A program made the translations under genes and the position numbers. Below are positions 3,441 to 62,852 of a stretch of 64,000 bases of DNA, one piece after another (position 1 is the first letter of the stretch; each line of letters starts with the position of its first letter). The notes under the pieces are model-generated. The model was not told where the DNA came from. It did no database searches and saw nothing but the letters and a program-made list of their open reading frames with translations. The stretch covers positions 32,293 through 96,292 of the IMG/VR virus record IMGVR_UViG_3300050138_000571. One strand, written 5' to 3'. The DNA is from a virus.

Positions 3441-3453
3441 GCGTTCGCTATAG
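3441..3453 (+). promoter_or_regulatory. Class A start-associated motif before split polymerase gene 1
   Basis: GCGTTCGCTATAG, 9 nt before the ATG at 3463. This is the first of 24 copies and heads the replication operon. No Shine-Dalgarno sequence lies between it and the start codon. Confidence 0.8.
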
Positions 3454-3462
3454 ACCTGGTAG

Positions 3463-5253
3463 ATGTCCCGTCGCTTCGCCAATTTCGTAAGTTGTCATGT
3501 CCATCCGAACAGCCTCGACAGCGGATCTACTCCGGAGTCGTTCGCTGAACGTGAGGCTGAGCTAGAGACCGGCGCCATCACGTGCACGGATCACGGGACG
3601 CTCCAGGCCGCTCCCAAGATTTACGATCTCGGAAAAGAGAAGGGGCTGACGCCGATCGTCGGCATCGAGGCGTATTTCCGGGATGACGAGTGCAGCATCC
3701 TGACCGCCAACGGCTACCAGAAGAACGAGCGCGGAGGATTCATCAGCGCGCCGAAATACATGCACATCACTTTGCACGCGATGGACTACCTCGCGTACCG
3801 GTGCATGGTCCGGCTGATCTCTCGCGCCGACACCCGCCTCGAAGCTGACAAAGAGCGGATGGAGCCCGTCCACCGGAAAATGGGCAGTGAACGGAAGGCT
3901 TTGTTCCGCTGGGCCGACCTAGAGGAACTGGGCACGCACAATGTGACGGCGACATCAGGCTGCATGACCGGCGTCTGCAAGCGCCACATCCTCGACAATG
4001 ATGACCCGAAAACTGCAATTCAGTACTTCGAGCGCCTCAAGTCCACGTTCAAGCCCGGTAACTTCTACGTCGAGCTGAACCCCCACGACACCAGTCACGA
4101 CTGGATCCAGGGCGTCTTCATCACAACGATCGACGGGACCGAACACAAGCTCTATGACGGGAAGATCGTCATGACGGACGCCGGGGAAATCCGGGCCGGC
4201 CAGCTGGCGAAGGAGTGGACGTTCGGGAAGCATCACATCCTCAAGTCAATCAAGGACCGCAGCAAGTGGCGGGAGATGGCTGAGGCCCAGATAGTCAAGG
4301 TGGAGCAGCGAGAGGGGTTCGACCGCAACGAGTGTCGGCCCTGGGCGCAGGACGGCAACTACGAGGCCGCCTTGAACCGATTCATGTTCATCCTCGCGAA
4401 GAAGCATGGGGTTCCCATCACCATCGGGGACGACTCGCATTACTCGACCGCGGGCTTGGCCATCGTTCAGGACGTGCGGCTCTCTCAGAAAGGGCCGTGG
4501 CGCTTTTACACCGGCGGCAAGCACAACACCTACCACCGGATGACGAGCGACGAGGCCTGGACTCATTTCCAGTCCATGCCGGGAGTCGGTGAGAAGGAAT
4601 TCGAGAGCTGGATCGCCAACTCTCACGACCATGCCAGCCGCTTCAAAGACTTCAAGTTCGAGTCGGTGCCGTCGTTACCGACCAGATTCTACGAGGCCGA
4701 GTACCAAAAGCGGCCCTGGTACGTGACCGGGAAGGCCGACAACAGCATCCGCTACACCATGGAGCTGATCCGCAAGCAAGGCCGGATGCGCTGGGACGAC
4801 GCGAAGTACGTGAGGCGTCTCCGGCAAGAGATCGACTTGCTGCACGGCAACGGAACCATCGATCTGCTGCCGTATTTCATGATCGACGAGGACGTCTGTT
4901 CCACGTACGAGCTGGCAGAGGAGTTGACGGGTCCGGGCCGAGGTTCGGCGGCCGGCGCGCTCATCAGCTATCTCCTCGGGATCACCCACGTCGACCCGCT
5001 CAAGTACGACCTGTCGCTCGACCGCTTCCTGACGAAGGACCGTATCAGCTCGGGGCGCTTGCCCGACATTGACCAGGATCTAAGTAGCCGCGACCTGCTG
5101 ACCGGTGGCGACGGGTCCAACTACGTCGAAATCGAACTGGACGATGGATCGAAAAAGATCGCGCGAGCGACAGCCAAGGTCACCACCGACGAAGGCGAAG
5201 TCACCGTGCAGGAAGCGTTCGATCGCGGCCTCGACATTCGGAGTTGGACATGA
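3463..5253 (+). CDS. dnaE: DNA polymerase III alpha subunit, N-terminal part (PHP and first half of palm)
   Basis: A 596-residue replicative polymerase fragment. The PHP domain begins at once (CHVHPNS, TCTDHG, GIEAYF). The palm contains PGRGSAAGALISYLLG and PDIDQDL, which supplies the first two catalytic aspartates. After SRDLLTGGDG the protein does not continue as a normal DnaE. It has about 45 extra, strand-rich residues (from SNYVEIELDDG to LDIRSWT) and then stops. The third catalytic aspartate is on the next gene, whose ATG overlaps this stop. The two products must therefore associate or be joined to make an active enzyme. Confidence 0.9.
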   Translation: MSRRFANFVSCHVHPNSLDSGSTPESFAEREAELETGAITCTDHGTLQAAPKIYDLGKEKGLTPIVGIEAYFRDDECSILTANGYQKNERGGFISAPKYMHITLHAMDYLAYRCMVRLISRADTRLEADKERMEPVHRKMGSERKALFRWADLEELGTHNVTATSGCMTGVCKRHILDNDDPKTAIQYFERLKSTFKPGNFYVELNPHDTSHDWIQGVFITTIDGTEHKLYDGKIVMTDAGEIRAGQLAKEWTFGKHHILKSIKDRSKWREMAEAQIVKVEQREGFDRNECRPWAQDGNYEAALNRFMFILAKKHGVPITIGDDSHYSTAGLAIVQDVRLSQKGPWRFYTGGKHNTYHRMTSDEAWTHFQSMPGVGEKEFESWIANSHDHASRFKDFKFESVPSLPTRFYEAEYQKRPWYVTGKADNSIRYTMELIRKQGRMRWDDAKYVRRLRQEIDLLHGNGTIDLLPYFMIDEDVCSTYELAEELTGPGRGSAAGALISYLLGITHVDPLKYDLSLDRFLTKDRISSGRLPDIDQDLSSRDLLTGGDGSNYVEIELDDGSKKIARATAKVTTDEGEVTVQEAFDRGLDIRSWT

Positions 5254-7688
5254 AAATCACGTCCTTGAAGGTCGTGTCGGACGCCGAGAGCGGCTGGCTC
5301 CATCGCAGGTTCGGGGACCATGTCGCCCAGATCTCGGTCGAGACGAAGATGAAGATGCGGCTCGCAGTCCGCGACGTCTCCCGCCAACAGAGAGGCTACG
5401 TTAACCCTGAAATCGAGCTTTTGGCCAAGAAGTTCCCGGAGCCGCCTCAAGGCGTGGAGGACCTCGACTTCGTCCTCGGATACGACAATGACGAGGGGCA
5501 CCAGCAAGGCGCCATCGAGGTCGATGCGGCCATCCAGGAGTACGTACGCCTCTACCCCGGGGACTGGGAGATCGTGCAGCAGTGCCTCGGGTTGGCGCGG
5601 CAGCGCTCCCGGCACGCGTGCGCCTACGTCATCGGCAATGAACCCATAGAGCAGATGATCCCGCTCACCACCGTCGGTGGAGTGCGAGTCACGGCCTACA
5701 ACGCTCCTGCCGTCGAGGCCGTTGGGGGCCTCAAGATGGACTTCTTGGTCGTCAACTCGCTGAAGGACATCGGCGACTGCATCAAGCTGATCCAGAAGCG
5801 GCACCCGGAGTTCGAGTACAAAGAGAGTTCGATCAACGGGCTCCGGGTGCCCCGGTTTCGCCAGATCCCGGCCCCCGGCGGCCTGGCCGACATCTGGGAT
5901 CTTCCGGACGATCAAAACGTGTTCATGGACGTGTCGCAAGGCCGCACGGAGACCGTCTTCCAGTTCAACACCGAGGGCGCAATCAAGTGGTTGAAGCACT
6001 TCAACTACAAGAAGCCCAACGGGAACTTCGCGATCGATTCGATCGCAACGATGGCCTATTTCACCGCGCTCGACCGTCCCGGCCCCCTCAACGCCTACGT
6101 GTCCAACCCCGAAGAAGAGGACGCCAAGCACAACATGCTCGTCGAGTATGCGCGTCGCGCCCGCGGAGCCCCGAAGAGCCCAGACATTCTGCCGATCTTC
6201 GACGAGCTGCTCCCCCACATGAACGGCATCATGATCACGCAGGAAGCGATGCAGTACATGTACCAGACCCTAACAGGGTGTTCTGGTCCCGAGGCCGAGG
6301 AGTTTCGCTCGAACGTCGCCAAGAAGAAGATGACGAAGGTCGAGAAAGCCTACCTACCATTCATCGAGTCCGCGGCCCGGAAGATCGGCAAAGAGAACGC
6401 CGAGGCCGTGTGGAAGAACTTCATCACGTTCGGCCAGTACGGCTTCAATTTCAGCCACGCCGTCTGCTACTCCGTCATAGGCTATGCCTGTGCCTACCTG
6501 AAGCACCACTATCCGCTGGAGTGGTGGGCGTCCGTGCTCTCGAACGCCTCGAAAAACGAGGTGTCCGACAAGTTCTGGGTGCATTGCGGGCAGCTCATCA
6601 AGCTTCCCGACGTCACGAAGTCCGGGGACAGGTTCACGATCGCAGGGGACTACATTCAGGCCCCGCTGAACGTGATCAAAGGGGTCGGCGACGGCGCCCA
6701 CGCTCAGCTCTCGAAGTACGGGCCCTACATGGACATCCTCGATTTCTGCCGAAAGATAGAGAAGCACCGCGTGGCCGGCGGCGGATACGTCATGAAGACG
6801 GTGAAGTACAAGGACAAAGACAACAAGGTCCTTAATCCGGAAACCGGTCGACTGGTTTCGACCGACGCCACCAAGGAGAAGCGGACGTTCAAAAGGGGAC
6901 CCAACGCGCTCAATGCTGGCGTCGTCAACGTGTTGATGGCGTCTGGCGCAATGGACGGCCTGTTTGCGGAAGGTCTCACCCTCGCAGAACAGATGGTCGA
7001 ATACGAGGCCGCGATGGCCGCGGCAGAGACCGAGACCAACATGGCCAAGGCAGAAAAAGGGGAGGTCGTCCGCCCCGTTAAACCAAAGAAGGTGGATCCG
7101 AGCGACTTCAACCTCAATGGTTTACAGCAGTACCAGTCCCGCAAGGCCGTGTTGCCGATCTATGGCGCCGACCTCATCCCTATGGTGATTCGCTCGGGCA
7201 AACTCGATACCCTCAAGCAGTACCCGGGCCGTGCACTTATGGAGTGGACCTCACCGTTCAACGGAAAGGCCAGCGTCATCAAAGTGATTAACGCCGACGA
7301 GTTGTCTCACGACGAGGACTTTGTCGTAAAGGACAAGAAATCGATCAATGTGGCAGTCGCCGCGTACATCGAAGACGTCGAGATCCGTAAGTATGGACCG
7401 CTGCTAAAAGAAATGGTTAAGGTCAAGCTCGACGTTGAAGGAGCGCGCTTCGAGTTGGTCAAATTCTCCGGCAAAGCAGGCCTAGTCCCAGATTGCTTCC
7501 GGCAACCGCTGAAGGGGGCAATCGCGATCGTGGTCCTGAATAAGTGGACAAACGATCGTCCTTTTGGGCCCGAAGCCGTGTTCGTGATCGAGCCACCAAT
7601 GTCCCACTCAAGGGCAGGAGCGGAGGATTGCGGGCCCGCGACCCCCTCAGCCAACAATGACGGGAGCGAGGCCTCGGAGGTTCCGTAG
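5250..7688 (+). CDS. dnaE: DNA polymerase III alpha subunit, C-terminal part
   Basis: An 812-residue continuation of the split polymerase. The ATG at 5250 overlaps the TGA of the first part (ATGA). About 13 non-homologous residues (MKITSLKVVSDAE) come before SGWLHRRFGDHVAQIS, which picks up the alpha-subunit alignment just after the break. LKMDFLVV supplies the third palm aspartate. Fingers motifs (RPGPL; TQEAMQ; YGFNFSHAVCYSVIGY) and an HhH-like GVGDGA segment are intact. The C-terminal third diverges and lacks an obvious tau-binding tail. Start and stop suggest translational coupling at roughly equal levels. Confidence 0.9.
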   Translation: MKITSLKVVSDAESGWLHRRFGDHVAQISVETKMKMRLAVRDVSRQQRGYVNPEIELLAKKFPEPPQGVEDLDFVLGYDNDEGHQQGAIEVDAAIQEYVRLYPGDWEIVQQCLGLARQRSRHACAYVIGNEPIEQMIPLTTVGGVRVTAYNAPAVEAVGGLKMDFLVVNSLKDIGDCIKLIQKRHPEFEYKESSINGLRVPRFRQIPAPGGLADIWDLPDDQNVFMDVSQGRTETVFQFNTEGAIKWLKHFNYKKPNGNFAIDSIATMAYFTALDRPGPLNAYVSNPEEEDAKHNMLVEYARRARGAPKSPDILPIFDELLPHMNGIMITQEAMQYMYQTLTGCSGPEAEEFRSNVAKKKMTKVEKAYLPFIESAARKIGKENAEAVWKNFITFGQYGFNFSHAVCYSVIGYACAYLKHHYPLEWWASVLSNASKNEVSDKFWVHCGQLIKLPDVTKSGDRFTIAGDYIQAPLNVIKGVGDGAHAQLSKYGPYMDILDFCRKIEKHRVAGGGYVMKTVKYKDKDNKVLNPETGRLVSTDATKEKRTFKRGPNALNAGVVNVLMASGAMDGLFAEGLTLAEQMVEYEAAMAAAETETNMAKAEKGEVVRPVKPKKVDPSDFNLNGLQQYQSRKAVLPIYGADLIPMVIRSGKLDTLKQYPGRALMEWTSPFNGKASVIKVINADELSHDEDFVVKDKKSINVAVAAYIEDVEIRKYGPLLKEMVKVKLDVEGARFELVKFSGKAGLVPDCFRQPLKGAIAIVVLNKWTNDRPFGPEAVFVIEPPMSHSRAGAEDCGPATPSANNDGSEASEVP

Positions 7689-7690
7689 GG

Positions 7691-7703
7691 GCGTTCGCTA
7701 TAG
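7691..7703 (+). promoter_or_regulatory. Class A motif, long spacing
   Basis: GCGTTCGCTATAG directly after the polymerase stop codon. The next start codon is 25 nt away and is preceded by AAAGGA. This is one of only two copies without a start codon within 9 nt. Confidence 0.75.
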
Positions 7704-7728
7704 AGAGAGACAACATTCAAAGGACCCA

Positions 7729-8514: not shown

Positions 8515-8517
8515 GGG

Positions 8518-8530
8518 GCGTTCGCTATAG
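8518..8530 (+). promoter_or_regulatory. Class A motif, long spacing
   Basis: GCGTTCGCTATAG just after the TAG of the preceding gene. The start codon at 8576 is 45 nt downstream and has GGAG 7 nt before it, giving a normal leader. Confidence 0.75.
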
Positions 8531-8575
8531 GTAGATCGAAACGATAACGCAACGAGACACGCAACGGAGAAATGA

Positions 8576-10408: not shown

Positions 10409-10438
10409 ATCACTCAGCGACTTGAAGGAGATTCACGT

Positions 10439-12790: not shown

Positions 12791-12803
12791 CTATAGCGAA
12801 CGC
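12791..12803 (-). promoter_or_regulatory. Class A motif, leftward
   Basis: GCGTTCGCTATAG on the minus strand, followed after 7 nt by the micro-ORF ATG and about 190 nt later by the 354-residue gene. It lies back to back with the rightward copy at 12814, forming a divergent pair. Confidence 0.8.
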
Positions 12804-12813: not shown

Positions 12814-12825
12814 CGTTCGCTATAG
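12814..12825 (+). promoter_or_regulatory. Class A motif, rightward
   Basis: CGTTCGCTATAG, 7 nt before the ATG of the ClpP-like gene. Only 10 bp separate it from the leftward copy. Confidence 0.8.
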
Positions 12826-15197: not shown

Positions 15198-15833
15198 ATG
15201 AAATCTCAGGACATGAAGGCTGCGGCCCTGCAGTGGCTGCGATTCGTTCGTCGTTACGAGATCGTTTGCACCGAGGCAGGGACCATTGGCCTCGCCGACG
15301 TCATCGGGGTCTGCCCGACCTCGGCTGTCGAAATGGAGATCAAAGTCTCGAAAGCAGATCTGCGCCGGGAGTTCACGGAGAAGGCTCACAAGCACCGCTA
15401 TTACAAGAGCGTGAGCGGCGGAGCGTCGCCCAACTACTTCTACTTCATGGTTCCGGAACAGCTCGTCGAAGCCGCGGTAGCGCTTGCCCTCGAACATAAC
15501 CCGAAGTACGGCGTCGTCTCGATGCCAGAAGGCGGGAACTACCAGACGCTGACGGTGACCCGCAAGGCCCAGCGCCTGCACAGCGAGAAGCCAGGCCCCG
15601 GGATGATCCGGGTGGCGACGATGAGGATGTCGTCGGAGCTTGCGACTCTGTACGCCGCCAACCGAGAGCTGGCGGCGAAGGTCGTTCATGCGTTCGAGGT
15701 GGGCGTCAACCAGGTCGTTCAACAGGCGATCTTGCCATTCGCGGCCGAGCCCGATCTGCCGCTCGAAACGAATGATGGTCCCGATCCTCTCTTCCTGGAG
15801 ACGGACCCTGGCGCACAGCAGCGTTCGCTATAG
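15198..15833 (+). CDS. PD-(D/E)XK nuclease-like protein
   Basis: A 211-residue protein. LADVIGV...VEMEIKVSKADL (Asp34, Glu47-Ile-Lys49) is a typical D...ExK active site, and NYFYFMVPEQL is the strand commonly following in MmcB/Holliday-junction-resolvase-like proteins. It probably cleaves DNA, perhaps in repair or recombination. The C-terminus RSL and stop are encoded by the class A motif that starts the next gene. Confidence 0.7.
   Translation: MKSQDMKAAALQWLRFVRRYEIVCTEAGTIGLADVIGVCPTSAVEMEIKVSKADLRREFTEKAHKHRYYKSVSGGASPNYFYFMVPEQLVEAAVALALEHNPKYGVVSMPEGGNYQTLTVTRKAQRLHSEKPGPGMIRVATMRMSSELATLYAANRELAAKVVHAFEVGVNQVVQQAILPFAAEPDLPLETNDGPDPLFLETDPGAQQRSL
15821..15833 (+). promoter_or_regulatory. 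Class A motif overlapping a stop codon
   Basis: GCGTTCGCTATAG; its final TAG is the stop of the nuclease-like gene. The next ATG is 7 nt downstream. Confidence 0.8.
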
Positions 15834-16391: not shown

Positions 16392-16404
16392 GCGTTCGCT
16401 ATAG
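16392..16404 (+). promoter_or_regulatory. Class A motif
   Basis: GCGTTCGCTATAG with the spacer GCAGATC before ATG, the most frequent spacer sequence. It follows the preceding stop codon by 1 nt. Confidence 0.8.
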
Positions 16405-18676: not shown

Positions 18677-18689
18677 GCGTTCGCTATAG
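18677..18689 (+). promoter_or_regulatory. Class A motif before dut
   Basis: GCGTTCGCTATAG then GCAGATC and ATG. It fixes the dUTPase start at 18697. Confidence 0.8.
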
Positions 18690-19929: not shown

Positions 19930-19942
19930 GCGTTCGCTATAG
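19930..19942 (+). promoter_or_regulatory. Class A motif
   Basis: GCGTTCGCTATAG with a 6-nt spacer to the ATG at 19949, just after the preceding stop codon. Confidence 0.8.
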
Positions 19943-20935: not shown

Positions 20936-20942
20936 ATGATTG
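20936..20942 (-). promoter_or_regulatory. Class B start-associated motif
   Basis: CAATCAT on the minus strand, 6 nt before the ATG at 20929. It lies in a 21-nt gap between leftward genes. Confidence 0.6.
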
Positions 20943-21529: not shown

Positions 21530-22072
21530 TCATATGATTGAGAGTGTGTTTGTATAGAGACGTAACTGTCGCGCAATGGCCTCAGTCCTGGGGTCCAGTT
21601 TGAAATTGATGCGCGAGAACTCCCCGAATGCCGCCAGCGCGGCCCGGTCGTAGGCGAGCGCGGCCTGGACCGGGGAGAGGAAGTAGCCAAGGTGACGGAG
21701 CTTGCCGTTGCTCCTGACGTAGGCCCTCCACTTATTTTGTCGGCTCCCCCAAGAGACCCCCTTGAACCCGCTGGTATTATTCGCCTGACGGTCGCGGTTC
21801 GCGCTGTTCAGGTCGCGGGGGTCGGGTCTCAGGTTGCTCTCTCGATTGTTCAGACCGTTGCGGTCGACGTGATCAGGCGGTCCGACAATGCCCATTCTGC
21901 GGGCGATGACCTGATGGAGCGCAACGGTCGTCCGGGTGCCGTCCGGATTACGGACGGAGCGCTGAGCATAGACGGTCTTGTTGCCCTTTTTTGCACACCA
22001 ATTAAATGCGATCAGATCGGCGTGTTTGTCGTCGATCGTTGTGACCTTGCCCTGAGTGAGTTGGATCTCCAC
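21530..22072 (-). CDS. HNH endonuclease with AP2 domain (homing type), copy 2
   Basis: A 180-residue paralogue of the gene at 13397. It shares the N-terminal MEIxLTxGxVTxIDD, the HNH core (DHVDRNGLNNRESNLRP) and the AP2-like domain (GVSWGSRQNKWRAYV, AALAYDRAALAAFGEF). The start is GTG. Unlike its structural neighbours it is preceded by a class A motif, so it probably arrived with its own promoter. It is inserted between two virion-type genes. Confidence 0.85.
   Translation of the reverse strand: MEIQLTQGKVTTIDDKHADLIAFNWCAKKGNKTVYAQRSVRNPDGTRTTVALHQVIARRMGIVGPPDHVDRNGLNNRESNLRPDPRDLNSANRDRQANNTSGFKGVSWGSRQNKWRAYVRSNGKLRHLGYFLSPVQAALAYDRAALAAFGEFSRINFKLDPRTEAIARQLRLYTNTLSII
21534..21540 (-). 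promoter_or_regulatory. Class B motif
   Basis: CAATCAT, 7 nt before the ATG at 21526. It overlaps the last bases after the HNH gene's stop codon, showing how tightly the insertion is fitted. Confidence 0.6.
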
Positions 22073-22078: not shown

Positions 22079-22091
22079 CTATAGCGAACGC
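22079..22091 (-). promoter_or_regulatory. Class A motif in the structural block
   Basis: GCGTTCGCTATAG on the minus strand, 6 nt before the GTG start of the second AP2-HNH gene. It is the only class A copy between 20 and 43.6 kb. Confidence 0.8.
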
Positions 22092-23032: not shown

Positions 23033-23039
23033 ATGATTG
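23033..23039 (-). promoter_or_regulatory. Class B motif
   Basis: CAATCAT, 9 nt before the ATG of the GGQ protein gene, within the 22-nt gap after the endolysin-like gene. Confidence 0.6.
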
Positions 23040-23546: not shown

Positions 23547-23553
23547 ATGATTG
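23547..23553 (-). promoter_or_regulatory. Class B motif within a palindrome
   Basis: CAATCAT sits inside the perfect palindrome CCCCAATGATTGGGG (23543-23557) and ends 6 nt before the ATG at 23540. Confidence 0.6.
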
Positions 23554-25473: not shown

Positions 25474-25480
25474 ATGATTG
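25474..25480 (-). promoter_or_regulatory. Class B motif
   Basis: CAATCAT, 10 nt before the GTG of the fibre gene; AAAGG lies between, so a short leader with a ribosome binding site is also possible. Confidence 0.55.
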
Positions 25481-29152: not shown

Positions 29153-29159
29153 ATGATTG
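29153..29159 (-). promoter_or_regulatory. Class B motif
   Basis: CAATCAT, 11 nt before the ATG at 29141, immediately after a GC-rich hairpin. Confidence 0.55.
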
Positions 29160-32634: not shown

Positions 32635-32641
32635 ATGATTG
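32635..32641 (-). promoter_or_regulatory. Class B motif, long spacing
   Basis: CAATCAT, 45 nt before the ATG of the modular fibre gene, 11 nt after the stop of the giant baseplate gene. Confidence 0.5.
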
Positions 32642-39408: not shown

Positions 39409-40182
39409 TTACGATGATTGAGGTCGGTGGGTGTGAGCGTGAATTCTGTCGATATGAGAAAGGAACGCTTCGACGCCCATCTCCCATTTCATGATGTTGC
39501 AAGGGGAGCAGCACGGGACCGCATTGACGATATCGTACCCTAATGCGTTGTCGACCCTGTCGACTCCGTTGGCTACATATGGGTGTTGGGTCTTTCGGCT
39601 GTAGACCATGTTAGGGGCGGCCCCGCAATAACGGCAAGATGCTGAGGTGAGGGACGCGAACTCCTCTATAGTTAGGTTCCACGACAAACTGCGGTCGCGG
39701 GCCCCCGCCTTATAGTGGGTGAACATAAACCTGACCCCTCCCGTGAGCCCTCCACTGGAAACATATTTTTGATGACCCAGCTCCCGCAACCTGTCCGCCG
39801 CCCCACACCCGCAGGACTGTATGCCGTTCGCAATCTTTAACTGCGCCGCACTCGTCACGAACTCGGCTCTGCAATCGCAAGTACAAGCAGCCTGGGCCAG
39901 GCGTTTACCCGATACCGATTGGCACATCCCGTCGACCACCAATTTGCCATAGCGTTTGCCCGTCAGATCTCCGGTTTTGGCGTACGCGAGGTCCCGCTTC
40001 AGGCACCCGCAAGACCTGACGGCGCCTTTCTTTAGGTTGTACCCAGGGCAGAGGGTAGACCCGCCGCACTCGCAAGCGCACTCCCACAGCGTATTGGTAA
40101 AGCGGTCCTTGCCGGCCCTACCCTTCACGGTTAGGCGGCCGAAGTGTAGTCCCGTATAATCAGTGCCTCTCGCTGGTTTCAT
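39409..40182 (-). CDS. HNH endonuclease, inserted between baseplate genes
   Basis: A 257-residue protein. Start at 40182 gives MKPARGTDYTG, 8 nt after a class B motif; longer starts run through that motif. Two CxCG-type zinc modules (CACECGG, RSCGCLKRD; CTCDC, QSCGCGAAD) come before the HNH part (CRYCGAAPN, NGVDRVDNALGYD, AVPCCSPCNIMKWEMG). The latter is a well-known homing-endonuclease ending. It ends 3 bp from the start of the giant baseplate gene. Confidence 0.8.
   Translation of the reverse strand: MKPARGTDYTGLHFGRLTVKGRAGKDRFTNTLWECACECGGSTLCPGYNLKKGAVRSCGCLKRDLAYAKTGDLTGKRYGKLVVDGMCQSVSGKRLAQAACTCDCRAEFVTSAAQLKIANGIQSCGCGAADRLRELGHQKYVSSGGLTGGVRFMFTHYKAGARDRSLSWNLTIEEFASLTSASCRYCGAAPNMVYSRKTQHPYVANGVDRVDNALGYDIVNAVPCCSPCNIMKWEMGVEAFLSHIDRIHAHTHRPQSS
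39414..39420 (-). promoter_or_regulatory. Class B motif
   Basis: CAATCAT, 8 nt before the ATG of the giant baseplate gene. It lies inside the 3' end of the HNH coding sequence. Confidence 0.6.
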
Positions 40183-40190: not shown

Positions 40191-40197
40191 ATGATTG
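40191..40197 (-). promoter_or_regulatory. Class B motif
   Basis: CAATCAT, 8 nt before the ATG at 40182, in the 37-nt gap after the LysM baseplate gene. Confidence 0.6.
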
Positions 40198-43087: not shown

Positions 43088-43094
43088 ATGATTG
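43088..43094 (-). promoter_or_regulatory. Class B motif
   Basis: CAATCAT, 6 nt before the GTG start of the HNH remnant. Confidence 0.55.
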
Positions 43095-43689: not shown

Positions 43690-43701
43690 CTATAGCGAAC
43701 G
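43690..43701 (-). promoter_or_regulatory. Class A motif without a long gene
   Basis: CGTTCGCTATAG on the minus strand, 8 nt before the micro-ORF ATG. It is placed just after the tandem terminators, as a fresh start of transcription. Confidence 0.75.
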
Positions 43702-44333: not shown

Positions 44334-45560
44334 TCAGTTGGCGGGTCGCGTTTCCTCCTGGACAACGACGCCCAACGTCGTCGGGACCTCGATCTGGATG
44401 CGGCCGCGGTCGGCGGCGGTGAAGCGACCCGGGAGCAGGTGGCTGTAGCGCTCCGTCGTGACCACCGAGCTATGGCCCATGACCTCTTGGAGCTTCTCTA
44501 AGGTCCCGCCGCCGAGCACCCATTGCGACGCAAACGTGTGCCGGGTCGCGCGGTACCAGATCATGGGCTCGATTCCCAGCTCGGTCAGGGTCTGGCGCAG
44601 CTCCTCTCCCATTCTGTGATCGCCCAGGAAGCGTCGCAGGGGGCCGGTGGCGGCGCCGCCCCGCATCCCGAGCATGGGCGGGCAGACCAAACCGGCGCCG
44701 CCCGTGATTACCCTGTGCTTCTCCAGCAGCGGGTACAGGGAGTCTAGGATCGGGACGATGCGGATCTCGCCGTCCTTGACCTTTGCCCGGCCGTCCGCGG
44801 TCAGCCGGGCGGCAGCCTTCCCCTTGCGCCTCTGGACCTGCTCTCGGACTGCGATCGTGCGCGAGATCAGGTTGACGGAGGCCCAGTCGAGGGCGCGGAC
44901 CTCTGACGTACGGAGGCCGCCCAGGGCGCCAACGGCGTAGGCGATGGCGATGCTGGTGTGTTTTTTGTACAGGCTCTCGTAGACGCGAAAGATGTCGGCG
45001 GCGTCCTTGATAAAAGGTACGTCCTTGGGATCGTGGTCGGATTTGAGGAACTCGCGCCGGGTTTTCTTGGACAGCATCCGGGTCGGGTTCATTTTGGCGT
45101 GCCCGTCCTCCACGAGATCCGAGTACAGGGACGAGAGCAGGGCCATGCATAGCTTGACCGTGGCCTTGCTCAAGCCCTTGGTGCGGAGGGCGGCCATCGT
45201 AGTCTTGAGGACCGACACATCGACCTCGTTTGGCGCCAAGTCGCCGATGAGAGGCTTGAGGTGGTTCGTCCAGCGGCTCGCGTCATCATAATGACTCTCG
45301 TGTGCGGTCCGCGCCGCCAGCCAGGTCACGGCCAGGGCACCTAGACTTGCGAGGTCCGTCCGGCTGCCCTCTCCGAGACCGTAGATCCCGTCCTGGACTC
45401 GCTTGGTGACCTGGTCGAGCAGGCGGCGGGCGGTGTCGGCGTCCGGCAGGGACTTCGTGCGACGTTTGCCGTCAACGTCATAAAATTGGATAATGGTCCG
45501 GTTGCCGACGGTCCTGATCGACCCGGCCCCGTGCGGTCTGCGGCGCTTCTTGCGTGCCAT
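44334..45560 (-). CDS. int: Tyrosine integrase
   Basis: A 408-residue site-specific recombinase. An AP2-like/arm-binding start (GSIRTVGNRTIIQFYDVDGKR) and a SAM-like core-binding domain come before the catalytic domain. Catalytic residues: Arg217 (GGLRTSEVRALDW), Arg340 in RATRHTFASQWV, His363 in MGHSS and Tyr372 in ERYSHL. The position normally holding the box II His, three residues before Arg340, is Arg. It is expected to integrate and excise phage DNA with an excisionase. A class A motif, not a class B, lies 9 nt before the ATG. Confidence 0.9.
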   Translation of the reverse strand: MARKKRRRPHGAGSIRTVGNRTIIQFYDVDGKRRTKSLPDADTARRLLDQVTKRVQDGIYGLGEGSRTDLASLGALAVTWLAARTAHESHYDDASRWTNHLKPLIGDLAPNEVDVSVLKTTMAALRTKGLSKATVKLCMALLSSLYSDLVEDGHAKMNPTRMLSKKTRREFLKSDHDPKDVPFIKDAADIFRVYESLYKKHTSIAIAYAVGALGGLRTSEVRALDWASVNLISRTIAVREQVQRRKGKAAARLTADGRAKVKDGEIRIVPILDSLYPLLEKHRVITGGAGLVCPPMLGMRGGAATGPLRRFLGDHRMGEELRQTLTELGIEPMIWYRATRHTFASQWVLGGGTLEKLQEVMGHSSVVTTERYSHLLPGRFTAADRGRIQIEVPTTLGVVVQEETRPAN

Positions 45561-45569: not shown

Positions 45570-45581
45570 CTATAGCGAACC
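45570..45581 (-). promoter_or_regulatory. Class A motif before int
   Basis: GGTTCGCTATAG on the minus strand, 9 nt before the integrase ATG. The first bases vary from the common form. Confidence 0.75.
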
Positions 45582-46405: not shown

Positions 46406-46418
46406 GCGTTCGCTATAG
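46406..46418 (+). promoter_or_regulatory. Class A motif
   Basis: GCGTTCGCTATAG then GCAGGTC and ATG at 46426. It begins the long right-arm gene series. Confidence 0.8.
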
Positions 46419-47061: not shown

Positions 47062-47405
47062 ACAAGGATCAGGCGCGGATGAACGCGCTGGCCATCACGA
47101 CCGTGATGGAGGCGATTCTCTCCATACCTTTGGAGCTGCAGGGGATGAAAGCAGAGATTGCAGAGCTTCGGCGTCAGATTTCTGTCCTGCAGGCGGTACA
47201 GCCGCTGGCGATCGTCGCCGTTCCAGAGGCTGCCGAACGCCTCGGTGTGACGCAAAGGACGGTACGGAGGATGCTGAAGTCGGGGCGCCTGAAGTCGGTT
47301 CGGATAGGGAATCGGGTTCGGGTCGACCTGAGCACGGTGCAGTCCGCTCTTTTGATGACGGCAGACAGCGCATTTGGCATTGACAGCAAAACCCAAGCAG
47401 CCTAG
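47058..47405 (+). CDS. Helix-turn-helix protein, candidate excisionase or regulator
   Basis: A 115-residue protein. A short coiled coil precedes a MerR/excisionase-type winged helix: VPEAAERLGVTQRTVRRMLKSGRL, then VRIGNRVRVDLSTV. The family recognises DNA as excisionases or plasmid/phage regulators. Its place 1.5 kb from the integrase fits a recombination directionality factor, but an ordinary regulator is possible. Confidence 0.7.
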   Translation: MNKDQARMNALAITTVMEAILSIPLELQGMKAEIAELRRQISVLQAVQPLAIVAVPEAAERLGVTQRTVRRMLKSGRLKSVRIGNRVRVDLSTVQSALLMTADSAFGIDSKTQAA

Positions 47406-47415
47406 CATCAAAATC

Positions 47416-48324: not shown

Positions 48325-48656
48325 GAAACCTCGAAGACAGACCACTGCACACGGCCGCGGACCGCGCGACCGCGAATCTGCGCGCTCTCGGCCTCAACGT
48401 GAAACCCGCGGTCGACGGCGCCGTCAAAGCCTACCTGGAGGCCATAATGCATCCCGACAGCTTGGTCCGGGTGACAGTGGTGGCCGAAGACGAGATGGCA
48501 CTCTTCGACTACATTGTGAACATAGACAAGAACGGCCGCAACAATATCGACTGGTCGAAGACCTGCAGGTCGACGGCCGAGCGCCCGGAGCTGGAGCTGC
48601 TCATCGAGTTCAAGAATGGATCCGGGATCGAGCTGGTGAGGCCACGTTCGCTATAG
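48321..48656 (+). CDS. Hypothetical protein ending in class A motif
   Basis: A 111-residue alpha/beta protein (VRVTVVAEDEMALFDYIVN, ELELLIEFKNGSGIELV). Its last three residues RSL and stop come from the motif at 48644. No family recognised. Confidence 0.6.
   Translation: MRNLEDRPLHTAADRATANLRALGLNVKPAVDGAVKAYLEAIMHPDSLVRVTVVAEDEMALFDYIVNIDKNGRNNIDWSKTCRSTAERPELELLIEFKNGSGIELVRPRSL
48644..48656 (+). promoter_or_regulatory. Class A motif overlapping a stop codon
   Basis: ACGTTCGCTATAG with TAG as the upstream gene's stop and ATG 7 nt further. Confidence 0.8.
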
Positions 48657-49448: not shown

Positions 49449-49461
49449 GCGTTCGCTATAG
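49449..49461 (+). promoter_or_regulatory. Class A motif
   Basis: GCGTTCGCTATAG, 6 nt before ATG 49468 and 4 nt after the membrane peptide's stop. Confidence 0.8.
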
Positions 49462-49782: not shown

Positions 49783-49963
49783 GATCCGGCGCCTTCACAA
49801 GAAAGACTGCCAGTTCCGTCGCGCAGCCACATGTTCAGTCGCCATCCCCTGCGAGCCCCACGGCCGCGACACCTGCCCGATCTGCGACAAGTGCACCTGC
49901 AAATCCGCCACGGCTCAAAAGCAGGAAACCGCGCTCCAGCATCCGCGCAAGCGTTCGCTATAG
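49730..49963 (+). CDS. Possible Cys-rich small protein
   Basis: A 77-residue frame from ATG 49730, overlapping the previous gene by 53 bp. It contains IPCEPHGRDTCPICDKCTC, a plausible metal-binding cluster, and ends in RKRSL with the stop inside the class A motif, as six other genes do. An alternative reading has no gene here. Another frame over the same stretch is Pro/Ala/Ser-rich. Confidence 0.35.
   Translation: MLAGRAGLHRLSLSCVCKIRRLHKKDCQFRRAATCSVAIPCEPHGRDTCPICDKCTCKSATAQKQETALQHPRKRSL
49951..49963 (+). promoter_or_regulatory. Class A motif
   Basis: GCGTTCGCTATAG, 7 nt (ACCGATC) before the ATG of the SMR-like gene. Confidence 0.8.
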
Positions 49964-50295: not shown

Positions 50296-50307
50296 CGTTC
50301 GCTATAG
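50296..50307 (+). promoter_or_regulatory. Class A motif
   Basis: CGTTCGCTATAG with spacer GCAGATC before ATG 50315; it follows the previous TAA by 1 nt. Confidence 0.8.
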
Positions 50308-54122: not shown

Positions 54123-54135
54123 GCGTTCGCTATAG
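54123..54135 (+). promoter_or_regulatory. Class A motif
   Basis: GCGTTCGCTATAG with spacer GCTGGGT, 7 nt before ATG 54143. Confidence 0.8.
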
Positions 54136-55960: not shown

Positions 55961-56280
55961 TGTGGTTCGGACCCCGACTGAAGTTCGCGCGGGCCAGAGT
56001 CAAACTGGAGGACGCAGCCGCGCTCGTCTACACGAATTGGGGCGGAGATCGTTGGGGGCATTCCGTCTACTGCAGCCCCGTCGATTACTGGTCGCATCGG
56101 CACTCGCCTGAGACTGTCTTCGCGCTCCTGCCATTGCTCGGGTCGCTCTGGAAAGAGATGTTGAAGGACCGGAGGGCGGACGAGCCGGTCTACGTCTCCC
56201 GATTCGTCCTGCGCCCACACGATGCAGTCCCCGAGGGTGAGGTGTGGTTGGTTCCAGACGAGTTCCTGGGTTCGCTATAG
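55960..56280 (+). CDS. Hypothetical protein ending in class A motif
   Basis: A 106-residue protein (ATG overlapping the preceding TGA by one base). Aromatic and basic, with VYCSPVDYWSHRH in the middle. It ends in GSL with the stop inside the class A motif. No family recognised. Confidence 0.55.
   Translation: MWFGPRLKFARARVKLEDAAALVYTNWGGDRWGHSVYCSPVDYWSHRHSPETVFALLPLLGSLWKEMLKDRRADEPVYVSRFVLRPHDAVPEGEVWLVPDEFLGSL
56268..56280 (+). promoter_or_regulatory. Class A motif overlapping a stop codon
   Basis: GGGTTCGCTATAG, a variant with GG for GC; TAG is the upstream stop and ATG follows after GTCAGAC. Confidence 0.8.
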
Positions 56281-56287
56281 GTCAGAC

Positions 56288-58562: not shown

Positions 58563-58563
58563 G

Positions 58564-58576
58564 GCGTTCGCTATAG
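58564..58576 (+). promoter_or_regulatory. Class A motif
   Basis: GCGTTCGCTATAG, spacer ACAGACC, ATG 58584. It follows the BCS1-like stop by 1 nt. Confidence 0.8.
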
Positions 58577-58583
58577 ACAGACC

Positions 58584-59123
58584 ATGAAACAGATCGATTG
58601 GCTGCAGGTGACGTCGTCGGGCGGTAAGCCGTCGCTGGACACCAACCAGGTCCGGACCTCGCTTCAACGCGCAGGGTTCAGGGAAGGGGATCTGGTCTCC
58701 GTAGTCCTAACCAGTGACTTATCCCAGGTCCCGGCGTCAGCGGAGGCCTTCGACCACGCAGCGTCATCGCAGATTTGCTCCGGCCAGCGCCGGACTCTCA
58801 ATCACGACCCTCAACTGCCCTTCACCATCATCGAGAGAGACGCCGATCTCAGTGGCTACTGGCGGGTCAAGTTCGACGACAACCCGTTCGCCCGTGAAGG
58901 CAGCTTCGGGGAGGAGTACATCGCCAAGCGCAGCACCGTCGTCGAGGAAGTACCTGCGACGGAGCCCACGACGGAACCGCCATTCCGCTGGTGGATCTGC
59001 TTTCAGGGTCACATAGGTCCGAAACGCGGGCCCATGCGCCGGGTCCTGGCCCGCACTTCAGAAGGTGCCCTTTCTCTGGCGAACGAAGGCCATGGCTACG
59101 CCGACACGGTGGTCCCTCTCTAA
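58584..59123 (+). CDS. Hypothetical protein
   Basis: A 179-residue protein with a mixed alpha/beta pattern and a C-terminal segment (RWWICFQGHIGPKRG, RVLARTSEGALSLANEGHG) that may be a small beta domain. No family recognised. Confidence 0.6.
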   Translation: MKQIDWLQVTSSGGKPSLDTNQVRTSLQRAGFREGDLVSVVLTSDLSQVPASAEAFDHAASSQICSGQRRTLNHDPQLPFTIIERDADLSGYWRVKFDDNPFAREGSFGEEYIAKRSTVVEEVPATEPTTEPPFRWWICFQGHIGPKRGPMRRVLARTSEGALSLANEGHGYADTVVPL

Positions 59124-59150
59124 ATGAAGACCCGGCACTTCGTCAAATGA
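59124..59150 (+). CDS. Candidate 8-codon leader ORF
   Basis: ATG right after the TAA at 59121-59123 reads MKTRHFVK and stops at TGA 59148-59150, overlapping the ATG of the next gene. It could pass ribosomes on by coupling. No other support. Confidence 0.25.
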   Translation: MKTRHFVK

Positions 59151-59422
59151 CCTGCGATCACTGCAGCGTTCCACTCGTCACGGTTCGAGCGATGTCCGGC
59201 AAACCCTGGCAGGCGTGCCCGTTCAGTGACTGTCCTGGCCACGGCCGCGTCCTGGAGCCGTGCTACGGGAAGATGAGATGCTACGACGAGATGGATTACG
59301 GAGACGGCGACTACGTGTGCTTCAAGGCCTGCAACGGCCACCTCTCTCAGGCCGTCTTCGACATGACTCTCTCTGGGATCTCCGCGAACCCTCGGCCACC
59401 GTACGAGCCGCGTTCGCTATAG
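59147..59422 (+). CDS. Zinc-finger-like small protein ending in class A motif
   Basis: A 91-residue protein with CDHC, CPFSDCPGHG and two further Cys (CYGKMRC), enough for a zinc site. ATG 59147 is chosen because the Cys motif begins there; the frame is open further upstream. It ends in RSL from the motif at 59410. Confidence 0.6.
   Translation: MTCDHCSVPLVTVRAMSGKPWQACPFSDCPGHGRVLEPCYGKMRCYDEMDYGDGDYVCFKACNGHLSQAVFDMTLSGISANPRPPYEPRSL
59410..59422 (+). promoter_or_regulatory. Class A motif overlapping a stop codon
   Basis: GCGTTCGCTATAG, TAG shared with the upstream gene, ATG after GCTTGGT. Confidence 0.8.
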
Positions 59423-59429
59423 GCTTGGT

Positions 59430-59768
59430 ATGACTCTTCCTCGCCGCTCCCGAGACCAGGTCACGGAGAAGATGCGCGGCGACGTACTCGCGCGTTACGG
59501 CCTCGACCTGAGCCTGGATTTTACTAACAACATCCTTGACGGCACCCCGGACCTGCTGGAAGACATGCAGGAGATGAACGTCGACACCGACAACCGTGGG
59601 TGGTTCATAGGGAAGGTGTCGGAGGAAATCGACTGCGGGAAGTGGCCGAAGGGCAACTCGACCGACGAGGACTGGGAGGCCTTCAAGGCACGACTCCGGA
59701 TCAATCTGCCCAAGCACGGCCAGCGCTATGTCGAGGTCGAGGACCGGCCGGCGAGCGTCTGGTCATGA
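59430..59768 (+). CDS. Small hypothetical protein
   Basis: A 112-residue acidic protein, mostly helical, with DNRGWFIGKVSEEIDCGKWP in the middle. No family recognised. Confidence 0.55.
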   Translation: MTLPRRSRDQVTEKMRGDVLARYGLDLSLDFTNNILDGTPDLLEDMQEMNVDTDNRGWFIGKVSEEIDCGKWPKGNSTDEDWEAFKARLRINLPKHGQRYVEVEDRPASVWS

Positions 59769-59956
59769 AGAAGACCTGCGCACCCGAGTGCGGGAAACCA
59801 TGCATCCACCTGGGGAACGCGTGGTGCACGCACACCAAGAGCGACCCGATCTGGTGGGGCACCCAGAAGTGCCGCGACGCCGGCCGCTGCGTGACCAAGC
59901 CTCGGAAGACGCCCTCGAAACCGAGTGGAAGACCTTCTTGGACGGGAAAGGGGTGA
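59765..59956 (+). CDS. Cys-rich small protein
   Basis: A 63-residue protein with CAPECGKPCIH, WCTH and CRDAGRC, then a basic Pro/Lys tail. Likely zinc-binding. ATGA overlap with the gene before. Confidence 0.55.
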   Translation: MKKTCAPECGKPCIHLGNAWCTHTKSDPIWWGTQKCRDAGRCVTKPRKTPSKPSGRPSWTGKG

Positions 59957-59960
59957 GCTG

Positions 59961-60446
59961 ATGGCCGAATTCGATATGCCGCTGGAAGTGATCCTGTCTC
60001 CTGCCCAAAAGGCTGCGGTAGTTAGGGCCGTCCATCGGGAGGCGGCCATGGAGCGTGGGCGGAGCGCCTACCACTTCGCCAAGACGGCTACGGCGAGGAA
60101 GATGAAGGACGAGGCGGTCCTGGCCGATGAGGTGGGAGGTGGCTACCGTCGCGGGTTCCTCGAAGCGAAGGCCGTGGACGAAGCCCCTCAGACATCGGCG
60201 TCAGAGTACGTCCGCGCCAAGTTCGTCCTCGATCGCCTGGGTCCGGGCCAGCGCATCGTCATCGACGTAGAGGCCTTCGGGCCCAATGGCCTGCGCAAAG
60301 AGTGTTACGCCACGCTTTACGACAAGGGCCTGGAGACGCCCGAGAACGAGGAGGGCTTCGTGGCCGCCGCCGAGGTCGTGGACATCGATGATTTGGGAGA
60401 CGTGATCACCAAGCTCTTCGAGGATCCGGACGTGGGTTCGCTATAG
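59961..60446 (+). CDS. Hypothetical protein ending in class A motif
   Basis: A 161-residue protein. A helical first half (AQKAAVVRAVHREAAMERG) and a beta-containing second half (QRIVIDVEAFGPNG). GGGG lies about 7 nt before ATG 59961. It ends in GSL from the motif. No family recognised. Confidence 0.6.
   Translation: MAEFDMPLEVILSPAQKAAVVRAVHREAAMERGRSAYHFAKTATARKMKDEAVLADEVGGGYRRGFLEAKAVDEAPQTSASEYVRAKFVLDRLGPGQRIVIDVEAFGPNGLRKECYATLYDKGLETPENEEGFVAAAEVVDIDDLGDVITKLFEDPDVGSL
60434..60446 (+). promoter_or_regulatory. Class A motif overlapping a stop codon
   Basis: GGGTTCGCTATAG, TAG shared with the upstream gene, ATG after GCTGAGC. Confidence 0.8.
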
Positions 60447-60453
60447 GCTGAGC

Positions 60454-60672
60454 ATGAAGATCGGTGACATTGTCCGGATCGTGCTCCAGCCCAAGAGCCA
60501 GTCAACCTATCTGGTCGGAGAGCGAGCGATCATCGAGGAGATGGAGGGCGGGTTCGCCGTCGCACGGAAACAGCGACAGCGTCGGATTCGAGAAGTTGCC
60601 AAGGCCCACGGCGTCAGCCCCAAGACGGCCTCAGCGATTTACAAAGCCTTGAATGTCGGAGGCGGATCATGA
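60454..60672 (+). CDS. Small protein with SH3-like start and HTH-like end
   Basis: A 72-residue protein. MKIGDIVRIV and GERAIIEEMEGGFAVAR look like a small beta barrel; RRIREVAKAHGVSPKTASAIYKAL is helix-turn-helix-like. It may bind DNA. ATGA overlap with the next gene. Confidence 0.55.
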   Translation: MKIGDIVRIVLQPKSQSTYLVGERAIIEEMEGGFAVARKQRQRRIREVAKAHGVSPKTASAIYKALNVGGGS

Positions 60673-61013
60673 GCCTCGCCCCTTGCTCTCATCCTCACCT
60701 GAAGTTCCGAAACCAGGGCTCGATCTTGGCCTGCGTCGACTGCTCGCGGGTCTATCACATGCTGATGCCGCAGATTGGCGCCCTGTACGGCGGCATCCCC
60801 GACGTCTGCTACAACCACCCTCAGCTCAGCGAGATCGAGGGCCGCCATGCCCCGTACGCTTCTCCCCGGCTCCAGCCTTTGCCCAAGAGCCCGGCGAAGC
60901 CCCTGACTCCGAAGCCGGTTCAGGTCCAGCCCGTCAAGAAGGTGGCGGCGGTGCCGGCCCCCAAGCCCCGAAGCTCGGTGACGGCTCGGGACCTGCTGCG
61001 GGGGAAGAAATGA
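60669..61013 (+). CDS. Hypothetical protein with zinc-ribbon start and Pro/Lys tail
   Basis: A 114-residue protein. CSHPHLKF with LACVDCSRVY gives a ribbon-like metal site; residues 65-114 are Pro, Lys, Val and Ala rich and disordered-looking. ATGA overlap with the next gene. Confidence 0.55.
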   Translation: MSLAPCSHPHLKFRNQGSILACVDCSRVYHMLMPQIGALYGGIPDVCYNHPQLSEIEGRHAPYASPRLQPLPKSPAKPLTPKPVQVQPVKKVAAVPAPKPRSSVTARDLLRGKK

Positions 61014-61348
61014 ACCACCCACATCCATGGAAGCTCCAGCCCGAGAACGAGGGCACCGATGACATGGGCGCGATCCTGGACGCTGACGGTGCCGAGGTCT
61101 GCGACTTCGGCGGCTGCTCCCCGTACGATAACGTGAGCGGCACGCCCCCGACCGAGCCCTACGCCACCTTGATGGTCGTGGCTCCGGAGATGGAGGACGT
61201 CCTGCGCGCCATCGTCGGCAAGGAGTGTCTGCCTGGCGAGTGCATTGAGTGCGGCTCCGACCTACAGAGGGGCGAAGATCATGACGACGACTGCAAGCTG
61301 AACAACCTCCTGGTCAAGATCGACATCGCCAGGAAGGCCGCGAAATGA
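61010..61348 (+). CDS. Acidic Cys-containing small protein
   Basis: A 112-residue protein with ECLPGECIECGSDLQRGEDHDDDC, a plausible zinc site, and an acidic N-terminal half. ATGA overlaps both sides. Confidence 0.55.
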   Translation: MNHPHPWKLQPENEGTDDMGAILDADGAEVCDFGGCSPYDNVSGTPPTEPYATLMVVAPEMEDVLRAIVGKECLPGECIECGSDLQRGEDHDDDCKLNNLLVKIDIARKAAK

Positions 61349-61602
61349 GCGATCCCAAGCTGACCGAAACCGGCATCCGGCCCCTGCGCAAATACGGGGC
61401 CGAGCTGCGGGACCTGGCCATTGACATCGTCAACCGGTTGGACGAGATGCAGAAAGAGGAAGACGGGGGCGAGCCGATCTCTTACGTCGAGACCGCGATC
61501 TGGAACGCGCTGTTCGGCTTTGACGCGACCATACCCGTCGACAAAAGGATCGCCAGCCTCCAGCGCGACCTCGACTACGCCCGAAGCAAGGCCGCGCCGT
61601 AG
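61345..61602 (+). CDS. Small helical protein
   Basis: An 85-residue acidic helical protein. It ends the operon begun at 60454. A 70-bp gap with no other feature than the next class A motif follows. Confidence 0.55.
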   Translation: MSDPKLTETGIRPLRKYGAELRDLAIDIVNRLDEMQKEEDGGEPISYVETAIWNALFGFDATIPVDKRIASLQRDLDYARSKAAP

Positions 61603-61653
61603 TCACCAGGCCTGAGTTCGCAGGAGCTGGATCAGATCTACTTCTACTTACCC

Positions 61654-61665
61654 CGTTCGCTATAG
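61654..61665 (+). promoter_or_regulatory. Class A motif
   Basis: CGTTCGCTATAG with spacer GCAGATC before ATG 61673. Confidence 0.8.
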
Positions 61666-61672
61666 GCAGATC

Positions 61673-61894
61673 ATGACCGCATCCGCAAAGCCGTACCGCC
61701 CGGCCGACTTCACGATCCCGATGCGGATTCCATGCCCCGCCTGTGGCGAGCTACACATCGACGAAGGCGAGTTCGCGACCCAGCCGCACCACACCCACGC
61801 CTGTCAGAAGTGCGGCAACGTCTGGCGTCCCGCAATCGTGCCCACCGTCGGCGTCCGCTTCCTGCCCGGCTTCAAGGACGAGGCCAAGCCATGA
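61673..61894 (+). CDS. Zinc-ribbon small protein
   Basis: A 73-residue protein with PCPACGELH and ACQKCGNVW, a clear two-knuckle zinc ribbon. It overlaps the next gene by ATGA. Confidence 0.6.
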   Translation: MTASAKPYRPADFTIPMRIPCPACGELHIDEGEFATQPHHTHACQKCGNVWRPAIVPTVGVRFLPGFKDEAKP

Positions 61895-62439
61895 CCCCCG
61901 AGCCAGGCCAGCTCTATCGGCCCCTTATGTGTCCCGACGTGCTCTGGATCGTGATGGCGGTTGAACTGGGCACCGAGTACCCGGTCAAGGTCCGACGCTG
62001 CGACGCCACCGACCAAACCCACGTCGGCAGATACTCTCTCGCGTACTTTGCTGAGGCCATGGAGCGGATGACAGTCACCCATATCCACTGCCCCGGCTGC
62101 GCCGAGACCTCCACCCTACGCGAGCAACTGGCCGAGGCCGAGCGTTATCGCGGACTGGCTAATGAGGCTGGTGACGCCGCGCTCGCCCGTCGCGTCGCCT
62201 CCCCGGCAGCGCCGATGAGCGAGGTCCATACCGAGGCGATGGAGTGGGAGTCGTGCCCGAGATGCGGGGGCCCCGCAGGCGCACCGATCATCACCGGCAA
62301 GGAAGAGGTGACGACGCCGGGATCGAAGACTCGGATCTTCGATCATAGGCTGGACGACAAAGTGATGGCGGCCCTCAGCCTCGGCAAGTCCAAGCTTCCT
62401 GCCCGATACCGGCTCCGGCTCCGGCTCCGGGGGCACTGA
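61891..62439 (+). CDS. Hypothetical protein with two CxxC sites
   Basis: A 182-residue protein. The N-terminal 65 residues are SH3-like (GQLYRPL, VLWIVMAVELGTEYPVKVRR), then HCPGCAE, a short coiled coil, SCPRCGGP and a basic Arg/Leu-rich tail. Function unknown. Confidence 0.55.
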   Translation: MTPEPGQLYRPLMCPDVLWIVMAVELGTEYPVKVRRCDATDQTHVGRYSLAYFAEAMERMTVTHIHCPGCAETSTLREQLAEAERYRGLANEAGDAALARRVASPAAPMSEVHTEAMEWESCPRCGGPAGAPIITGKEEVTTPGSKTRIFDHRLDDKVMAALSLGKSKLPARYRLRLRLRGH

Positions 62440-62471
62440 TTGCAATTTCCGCCGGTGCCGCGACCGTGATC

Positions 62472-62852
62472 ATGAAAAAGACGATGGGCTGGATCGGGGT
62501 AATCCGCTGCGGCCTTCACTCCGGCTTCCCCCGCTGCTGCATCCGGTTCTTCCTCGGGCCCTGGTCCAAGATGTCGCTAGTCGAGCGCCGCCAGTACCTG
62601 CAGTCACCCGGGCCCGGCTACGTGCCTTGCCCAGCCTGCGTTGCCGCCGACAACTTCGTCAAGGCAAAGAGCTGCCCGGTCGGCAGCCACGGCGGGAACG
62701 TAGTCGGACGTTTCGAGGCCGTGTACGAGAGGCAGGTCGACGGCACCGCGCTGCTGAAGTCGGGCGAGTACTTTTACAGGGACAAGCCCGGGAGCTTCCG
62801 ACTGCAGGTGGTGAACGGCCATTACGTCGAGATCCCGGGGCGTTCGCTATAG
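62472..62852 (+). CDS. Cys-containing hypothetical protein ending in class A motif
   Basis: A 126-residue protein with GFPRCCIRFFLGPW, PCPACVAAD and a beta-rich second half (SGEYFYRDKPGSFRLQVVNGHY). GTG 62466 is an alternative start. It ends in RSL from the motif at 62840. Confidence 0.55.
   Translation: MKKTMGWIGVIRCGLHSGFPRCCIRFFLGPWSKMSLVERRQYLQSPGPGYVPCPACVAADNFVKAKSCPVGSHGGNVVGRFEAVYERQVDGTALLKSGEYFYRDKPGSFRLQVVNGHYVEIPGRSL
62840..62852 (+). promoter_or_regulatory. Class A motif overlapping a stop codon
   Basis: GCGTTCGCTATAG, TAG shared with the upstream gene, ATG after GCTGGGC. It is the last copy in the window. Confidence 0.8.

Follow-up and report, generated by a model that had tools for sequence, protein, structure and literature searches.

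Start-associated words suggest two classes of leaderless promoters in phages related to Myxococcus phage Mx1

Introduction

The late promoters of phage T4 (TATAAATA) consist of a contiguous element in the -10 region with no -35 element, and they are read by the phage sigma factor gp55 together with the host core RNA polymerase; gp55 is a diverged sigma factor without a reader of the -35 element, and it serves the virion genes. By analogy, the T4 late promoters are taken here as the working likeness of a system of two start-associated words, termed class I and class II. As in T4, only an element of the -10 region was found in the present analysis, along with a sigma factor that has no region 4.2; however, the words differ from that of T4, there are two classes of them, most would be leaderless, and the sigma factor retains region 4.1 and a part that resembles region 3. 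Furthermore, T4 late promoters serve virion genes, whereas here it is class II, and not class I, that leads such genes.

In its placement, class I recalls the start-associated sequence (SAS) of cluster K phages, a 13-bp word (GGGATAGGAGCCC) that contains AGGAG and lies 3-7 bp before the ATG of non-structural genes (PMC3203893), with 17-bp inverted repeats (SAS/ESAS) on about half of the copies (PMC3203893, PMC12699233). Class I is likewise a 13-bp asymmetric word a few nucleotides (6-9 nt) before the ATG of non-structural genes, in nearly one orientation; however, it lacks GGGATAGGAGCCC, contains no Shine-Dalgarno (SD) sequence, has no inverted repeats, occurs in an unrelated phage, and is matched by a second word for structural genes. 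Because the sequence, the SD content and the second class all differ, the class I word is not a member of the cluster K SAS, and the comparison agrees with a preliminary description of this DNA that had noted an SAS-like placement with a different sequence.

Phages phiKZ and AR9 also have two short phage-specific promoter words per genome, one early and one late (PMC5312081); both encode multisubunit RNA polymerases, and AR9 messages have leaders of 26-491 nt (PMC5312081), whereas beta' (PF04998) was not found here. T7-class promoters share the TATAGG core, but no single-subunit polymerase was found here and the inferred transcription start lies elsewhere. A search of the literature found no publication describing the class I or class II words, and for Mx1 it yielded a general review only.

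Results

The window, i.e., the whole 64,000-nt stretch that was analyzed, comprises bases 32,293-96,292 of a 96,292-bp IMG/VR virus record (G000, IMGVR_UViG_3300050138_000571). The preliminary description had reported a 13-bp motif repeated 24 times, and an exact-match count of TTCGCTATAG in the window bears this number out (24 copies; 20 on the plus strand and 4 on the minus strand). No copy with exactly one mismatch is present in the window, and shuffled sequence gave a mean of 1.24 and a maximum of 4 matches at up to one mismatch. The G before TTCGCTATAG is also invariant in 24/24 window copies, which makes the 11-mer GTTCGCTATAG the actual core; the full 13-mer GCGTTCGCTATAG, however, is exact in only 16 of the 24, its first two bases carrying one mismatch in 7 copies and two in 1. 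The coordinates given earlier were correct to within 1-3 nt, the starts of the 12-mer, the 13-mer and the core having been mixed. Upstream of the 13-mer there is no conservation across the 24 window copies, and no -35 element is conserved. Outside the window G000 holds 10 more class I copies, which brings the whole record to 34.

An ATG or GTG stands 6-9 nt past the G of the class I word in 22 of the 24 window copies, most commonly at 7 nt, and in this the recount agrees with the earlier one. On the plus strand, the ATG lies 7 nt on at 12815-12825 (a Clp-protease-like gene), 15823-15833, 16394-16404, 18679-18689 (a dUTPase-like gene), 46408-46418 (a 211-aa gene), 48646-48656 (a 218-aa gene), 49953-49963, 50297-50307, 54125-54135, 56270-56280, 58566-58576, 59412-59422, 60436-60446, 61655-61665 and 62842-62852; 6 nt on at 19932-19942 (a 184-aa gene with a cREC receiver domain in its G001 orthologue) and 49451-49461; and 9 nt on at 3443-3453, the start of the N-terminal half of DnaE. 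On the minus strand, a GTG lies 6 nt past the copy at 22079-22089 (a 180-aa gene), and an ATG lies 9 nt past the copy at 45570-45580, which precedes a 408-aa integrase gene (44337-45560, minus strand) of the tyrosine-recombinase type (PF00589, E 1.4e-11) with relatives in G001 and G002. Two of the 22 copies, both on the minus strand, open very short frames only: 12791-12801 (ATG 7 nt on, with a hyp147 homologue farther downstream), which forms a divergent pair with 12815-12825, and 43690-43700 (ATG 8 nt on). The two exceptions to the spacing, at 7694 and 8521 (7693-7703 and 8520-8530, plus strand), have their ATG 25 and 45 nt on, after the SD-like sequences AAAGGA and GGAG, respectively; the latter copy precedes an SSB-like gene.

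Relatives were found by a search with the DNA-transfer protein encoded at 833-2440 of the window, and genes in the metagenomic records were called by a simple in-house caller. The protein is 90% identical in G001 (168,646 bp), 67% in G002 (169,280 bp) and 51% in G003 (43,649 bp). The exact 11-mer occurs 53 times in G001 and 0 times in G002, and reversed-pattern controls for the class I word gave 0-2 matches, compared to 34 in G000 and 53 in G001. The preliminary description had named loss of the word at orthologous starts in close relatives as evidence against a promoter; in G001 the word is kept at 17 of the 19 comparable orthologous starts. In G002 there are 49 copies of TTCGCTAT against approximately 3 expected, mostly in the form GATTCGCTATnnG followed by pyrimidines, C and ATG, and in 22 of these copies the ATG lies exactly 9 nt past TAT. 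The AG after TAT is lost in G002 while the distance to the ATG is kept, which indicates that TTCGCTAT and the start distance, and not TATAG, are what stays constant. Of 24 class I orthologues in G002, just 10 keep the exact core, in part because the core is looser there.

The intact 11-mer is also found, in several copies each, in further IMG/VR contigs of 76-86% nucleotide identity. One contig without nucleotide similarity to the others (L186, IMGVR_UViG_3300049491_000938) has GATTCGCTATAGG-type copies before ATG and is likely a further branch of the phage group. Neither the class I nor the class II word is present in number in the 43-kb G003. Single matches to GTTCGCTATAG-N7-ATG in low-GC viral contigs (e.g., L088) look like chance and were set aside.

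Unbiased positional word counts before starts revealed a second word, CAATCAT in G000 and G001 and CAATCTT, mostly as GCAATCTT, in G002 and Mx1, typically followed by the start codon at a distance of 6-9 nt. The single start-associated class of the preliminary description, class I here, is one of two such putative promoter classes. Class II copies that are followed by a start at 5-9 nt number 13 in G000, 24 in G001, 18 in G002 and 4 in Mx1, compared to 0.8, 1.6, 0.2 and 0.8, respectively, in simulated sequence; in total, G001 holds 38 class II words beside its 53 of class I.

Within the window, every class II copy that has a start codon is found on the minus strand between 20.9 and 43.1 kb, which is the virion block, and class I has no copy between 22.1 and 43.7 kb. 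These copies lead a 112-aa gene (20936-20942, ATG 6 nt on), a 191-aa gene (21534-21540, ATG 7 nt on), a 109-aa gene (23033-23039, ATG 9 nt on), a 164-aa gene (23547-23553, ATG 6 nt on), a 626-aa gene adjoining tail-fibre (kelch) genes (25474-25480, GTG 10 nt on), a 1076-aa kelch/fibre-like gene (29153-29159, ATG 11 nt on), a 2250-aa baseplate-J-like gene (39414-39420, ATG 8 nt on), an HNH/endonuclease VII-like gene (40191-40197, ATG 8 nt on) and a 120-aa gene just upstream of a baseplate-assembly gene (43088-43094, GTG 6 nt on). A class II-like copy at 32635-32641 (minus strand) has non-canonical spacing, approximately 46 nt before the ATG of a 1127-aa virion-like gene.

Genes were labelled by homology to the Mx1 annotation and grouped by us, and with these labels the genes directly downstream of class I comprise 25 for replication or metabolism and 0 for the virion, while those directly downstream of class II comprise 23 for the virion and 1 other. 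In Mx1 itself, class II precedes the annotated portal, prohead protease, tailspike, baseplate assembly and baseplate J genes, some of the class II genes having a short leader between the word and the start. Class I has no recognizable counterpart sequence in Mx1, and a word of the type [AT]GATCAAC-N3-4-GTA is found there before ATG.

If +1 is placed at the A of the ATG, the class I word puts T at -12, A at -11 and G at -7. T at -12 and A at -11 are as in the -10 element of the sigma70 family. The -10 element proposed in the preliminary description thus fits at these two positions; it departs from an ordinary -10 element at -7, where G stands in place of T, and in the lack of a -35 element, and the GTTCGC upstream shows the same degree of invariance as TATAG. 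Class I was rejected as a housekeeping sigma70 promoter (TTGACA-N17-TATAAT), since no -35 is conserved and G occupies -7.

Among the 65 copies in which no start codon occupies +9 after TTCGCTAT, a pyrimidine-purine (Y-R) step is present at +9 in 34 (binomial p of 2e-6 against 25%), which is the offset with the most such steps. In G002 alone the step is found at +9 in 15/24 copies and at other offsets in at most 8, while in G000 and G001 alone the signal is broad, covering +9 and +10. In several G002 copies without a start at +9, an SD sequence begins exactly there, as in TTCGCTATCAGCTCTTC-AGGAGGACACG-ATG. SD-like sequences accompany 20/93 near starts but 21/32 far starts (p of 1.6e-5), and are found in 144/291 genes with neither word; 22% of near copies retain an SD-like tetramer. 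Copies within and between these genomes are not independent, and since the genomes are related, both p-values overstate independence and are indicative. The distribution of SD sequences suggests that adjacent starts are leaderless and distant starts short-leadered, and a Y-R step or SD at +9 when the start codon is absent favors the A of the ATG as the first transcribed base. Altogether, the comparative evidence supports the earlier proposal of a promoter from which transcription begins at the AUG or right beside it, and it favors a contiguous class I element from -18 to -8, with no -35.

A candidate for a phage-encoded reader is a 346-aa sigma-like protein (G000:30,423-31,463) whose gene ends 830 bp left of the window. 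It is conserved in G001 (95%), G002 (46%) and Mx1 (35%), where the orthologue (WNM70309.1) is deposited as a putative sigma factor, and also in a contig of an Elusimicrobia MAG. Single members match weakly (Pfam Sigma70_r2, E 0.003; PHROG sigma, 1e-6), whereas the family matches a PHROG sigma family at E 4e-7 and its profile matches SigA structures at E of approximately 1e-6 in an alignment that covers regions 2 and 3 and the first part of region 4 and stops before 4.2. All of the relatives end right after region 4.1, so that the region 4.2 helix-turn-helix is missing. The region 4.2 helix-turn-helix reads the -35 element, and a putative sigma factor without it is in keeping with promoters that have no -35. 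Structure prediction for the protein gave a poor model (pLDDT 55), and the top fold-search matches, which were sigma factors at E 0.19 or worse, were not relied on. In each of G000, G001 and G002, the helicase and sigma genes form a pair headed by a class I copy.

The Elusimicrobia contig (L066, JAGWUP010000007.1) is 165 kb long and is probably a phage; its sigma homologue is split by a frameshift and lies beside a helicase-like gene, and no start-associated word was found in the 21 kb examined.

Other readers were sought in the G000-G002 records, which are perhaps incomplete. No beta' (PF04998) homologue was found while 14/14 controls were positive, and on this basis a multisubunit phage polymerase was rejected. 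No second sigma factor or activator was found among ten conserved uncharacterized proteins.

Discussion

We infer from these comparisons that both words are promoters, class I acting in the early/middle period, with the sigma gene among its targets, and class II late. The class I element GTTCGCTATAG would span approximately -18 to -8 with no -35, and RNA synthesis would start 9-10 nt past TTCGCTAT, mostly at the A of the ATG, so that most class I messages would be leaderless and a minority would extend to a start codon that an SD precedes. Class I would drive replication, nucleotide-metabolism, accessory and integrase genes, while class II (CAATCAT or GCAATCTT, ending at approximately -7) would be a second leaderless class driving virion genes. 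Leaving the sigma factor aside, a class I promoter starting at the ATG and the existence of two functional classes are, on the sequence evidence, probable.

With less certainty, and by analogy with T4 gp55, the sigma factor may switch the host RNA polymerase to -10-only promoters, and in the proposed scheme it would turn the host core polymerase to the class II late promoters. We lean slightly towards class II as its target, because class II is common to all four sigma-bearing phages examined in depth, including Mx1, and because of the virion gene set that class II leads; that it reads both classes is rather unlikely. A broader version for Mx1-like phages can be put forward tentatively, in which nearly the whole genome is expressed from two -10-only leaderless classes with hardly any host-type promoters, the sigma factor lacking region 4.2 reads one or both of them, and a second phage factor or a host sigma serves the 11-mer.

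A variant that overlaps with this scheme is that the sigma factor reads class I alone, class II being read otherwise or by the sigma factor with a late co-factor. A contiguous extended -10 element is the expected target of a sigma factor with only regions 2 and 3, a class I copy lies 4 nt past the sigma stop codon in G000 and G001, and class I is commoner than class II in these genomes; however, class I is not recognizable in Mx1 although class II occurs in every one of the four sigma-bearing phages, and the sigma gene itself lies behind a class I promoter, which would be circular if the sigma factor were its sole driver. This assignment is therefore possible but doubtful.

It is considerably less probable that class I is a signal in mRNA that recruits ribosomes and acts in translation only, as was first proposed for the cluster K SAS. 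The fixed position before the ATG is compatible with such a signal, as is the minimal intergenic space, in which upstream stop codons overlap the class I word. Copies 25-60 nt from the start codon, however, tend to have an SD and keep the Y-R step at +9, copies stand divergently back to back at 12791/12815, the word has no complementarity to the anti-SD, and two words unrelated in sequence sort genes by function.

The initiator and SD pattern argues against a purely translational element and equally against a promoter of the kind used by T7-like single-subunit RNA polymerases (CACTATAGGGAGA for comparison), in which the G of TATAG would be +1; we regard such a T7-like promoter as very improbable. 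TATAGG followed by CAGA does resemble T7, and the invariance is strict; however, no PF00940 polymerase was found in the G000-G002 records while the T7 control scored 1e-110, on which ground the T7-like promoter was rejected, and moreover G002 conserves the spacing to the ATG but not the AG that follows TAT, and the initiator signal sits at +9. Least credible is an operator, stoperator or other DNA-binding site (for a repressor, packaging or replication) that happens to sit at starts, which would accord with the strict invariance and the presence of an integrase gene but would not explain why the copies are strictly oriented and kept in a 9-nt register with starts, nor the initiator signature.

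If the promoter reading is correct, sequence would reveal the promoter class at approximately 80-90 start sites in each genome and so, without experiment, the likely temporal programme in a group of phages that is unstudied, and a minimal sigma factor would be tied to leaderless messages genome-wide. The predicted leaderless genes would also form a dense set for studies of leaderless translation, and the culturable Mx1 would offer a compact system for promoter choice by a sigma factor without region 4.2.

Promoters of the host type (TTGAC-N16-18-TAnnnT) number 41 in Mx1 compared to 2, 4 and 3 in G000, G001 and G002, respectively, and were rejected as the main drivers in these three genomes, where almost none were found. 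In Mx1 (OR576727.2), approximately 41 lie on the minus strand at 69-121 kb, mostly before small genes in one block; many have GGATCT within the spacer or close to it, and together they make up a well-marked class of the early type in a phage that is in culture. In the window, a host-type TTGACA-N17-TAGCAT at 47380-47415, with an ATG 7 nt past the -10 and a small gene downstream, is kept in G001 (82894) and is a candidate immediate-early leaderless promoter.

Two further observations concern individual genes. DNA polymerase III alpha is split into two genes in the window (3463-5253 and approximately 5250-7688) and in G002 (73294-75864 and 70876-73128), while it is one intact gene in Mx1. The G002 break has the look of a canonical split intein (...KGRHA|CFPGGEAILL and ...ESGVIVHN|CAFV); the break in the window lies elsewhere in the domain, with an intein-like tail and head and no clear Cys1 or HN-Cys junction, and appears from its sequence to be an atypical or decayed split intein. 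Lastly, a transposase-like protein (IS1595-like by eye; G001:123129-124154 and G002:167737-168720) is 90% identical between the two genomes, compared to mostly 30-65% for their other proteins, which suggests a recently moved element.
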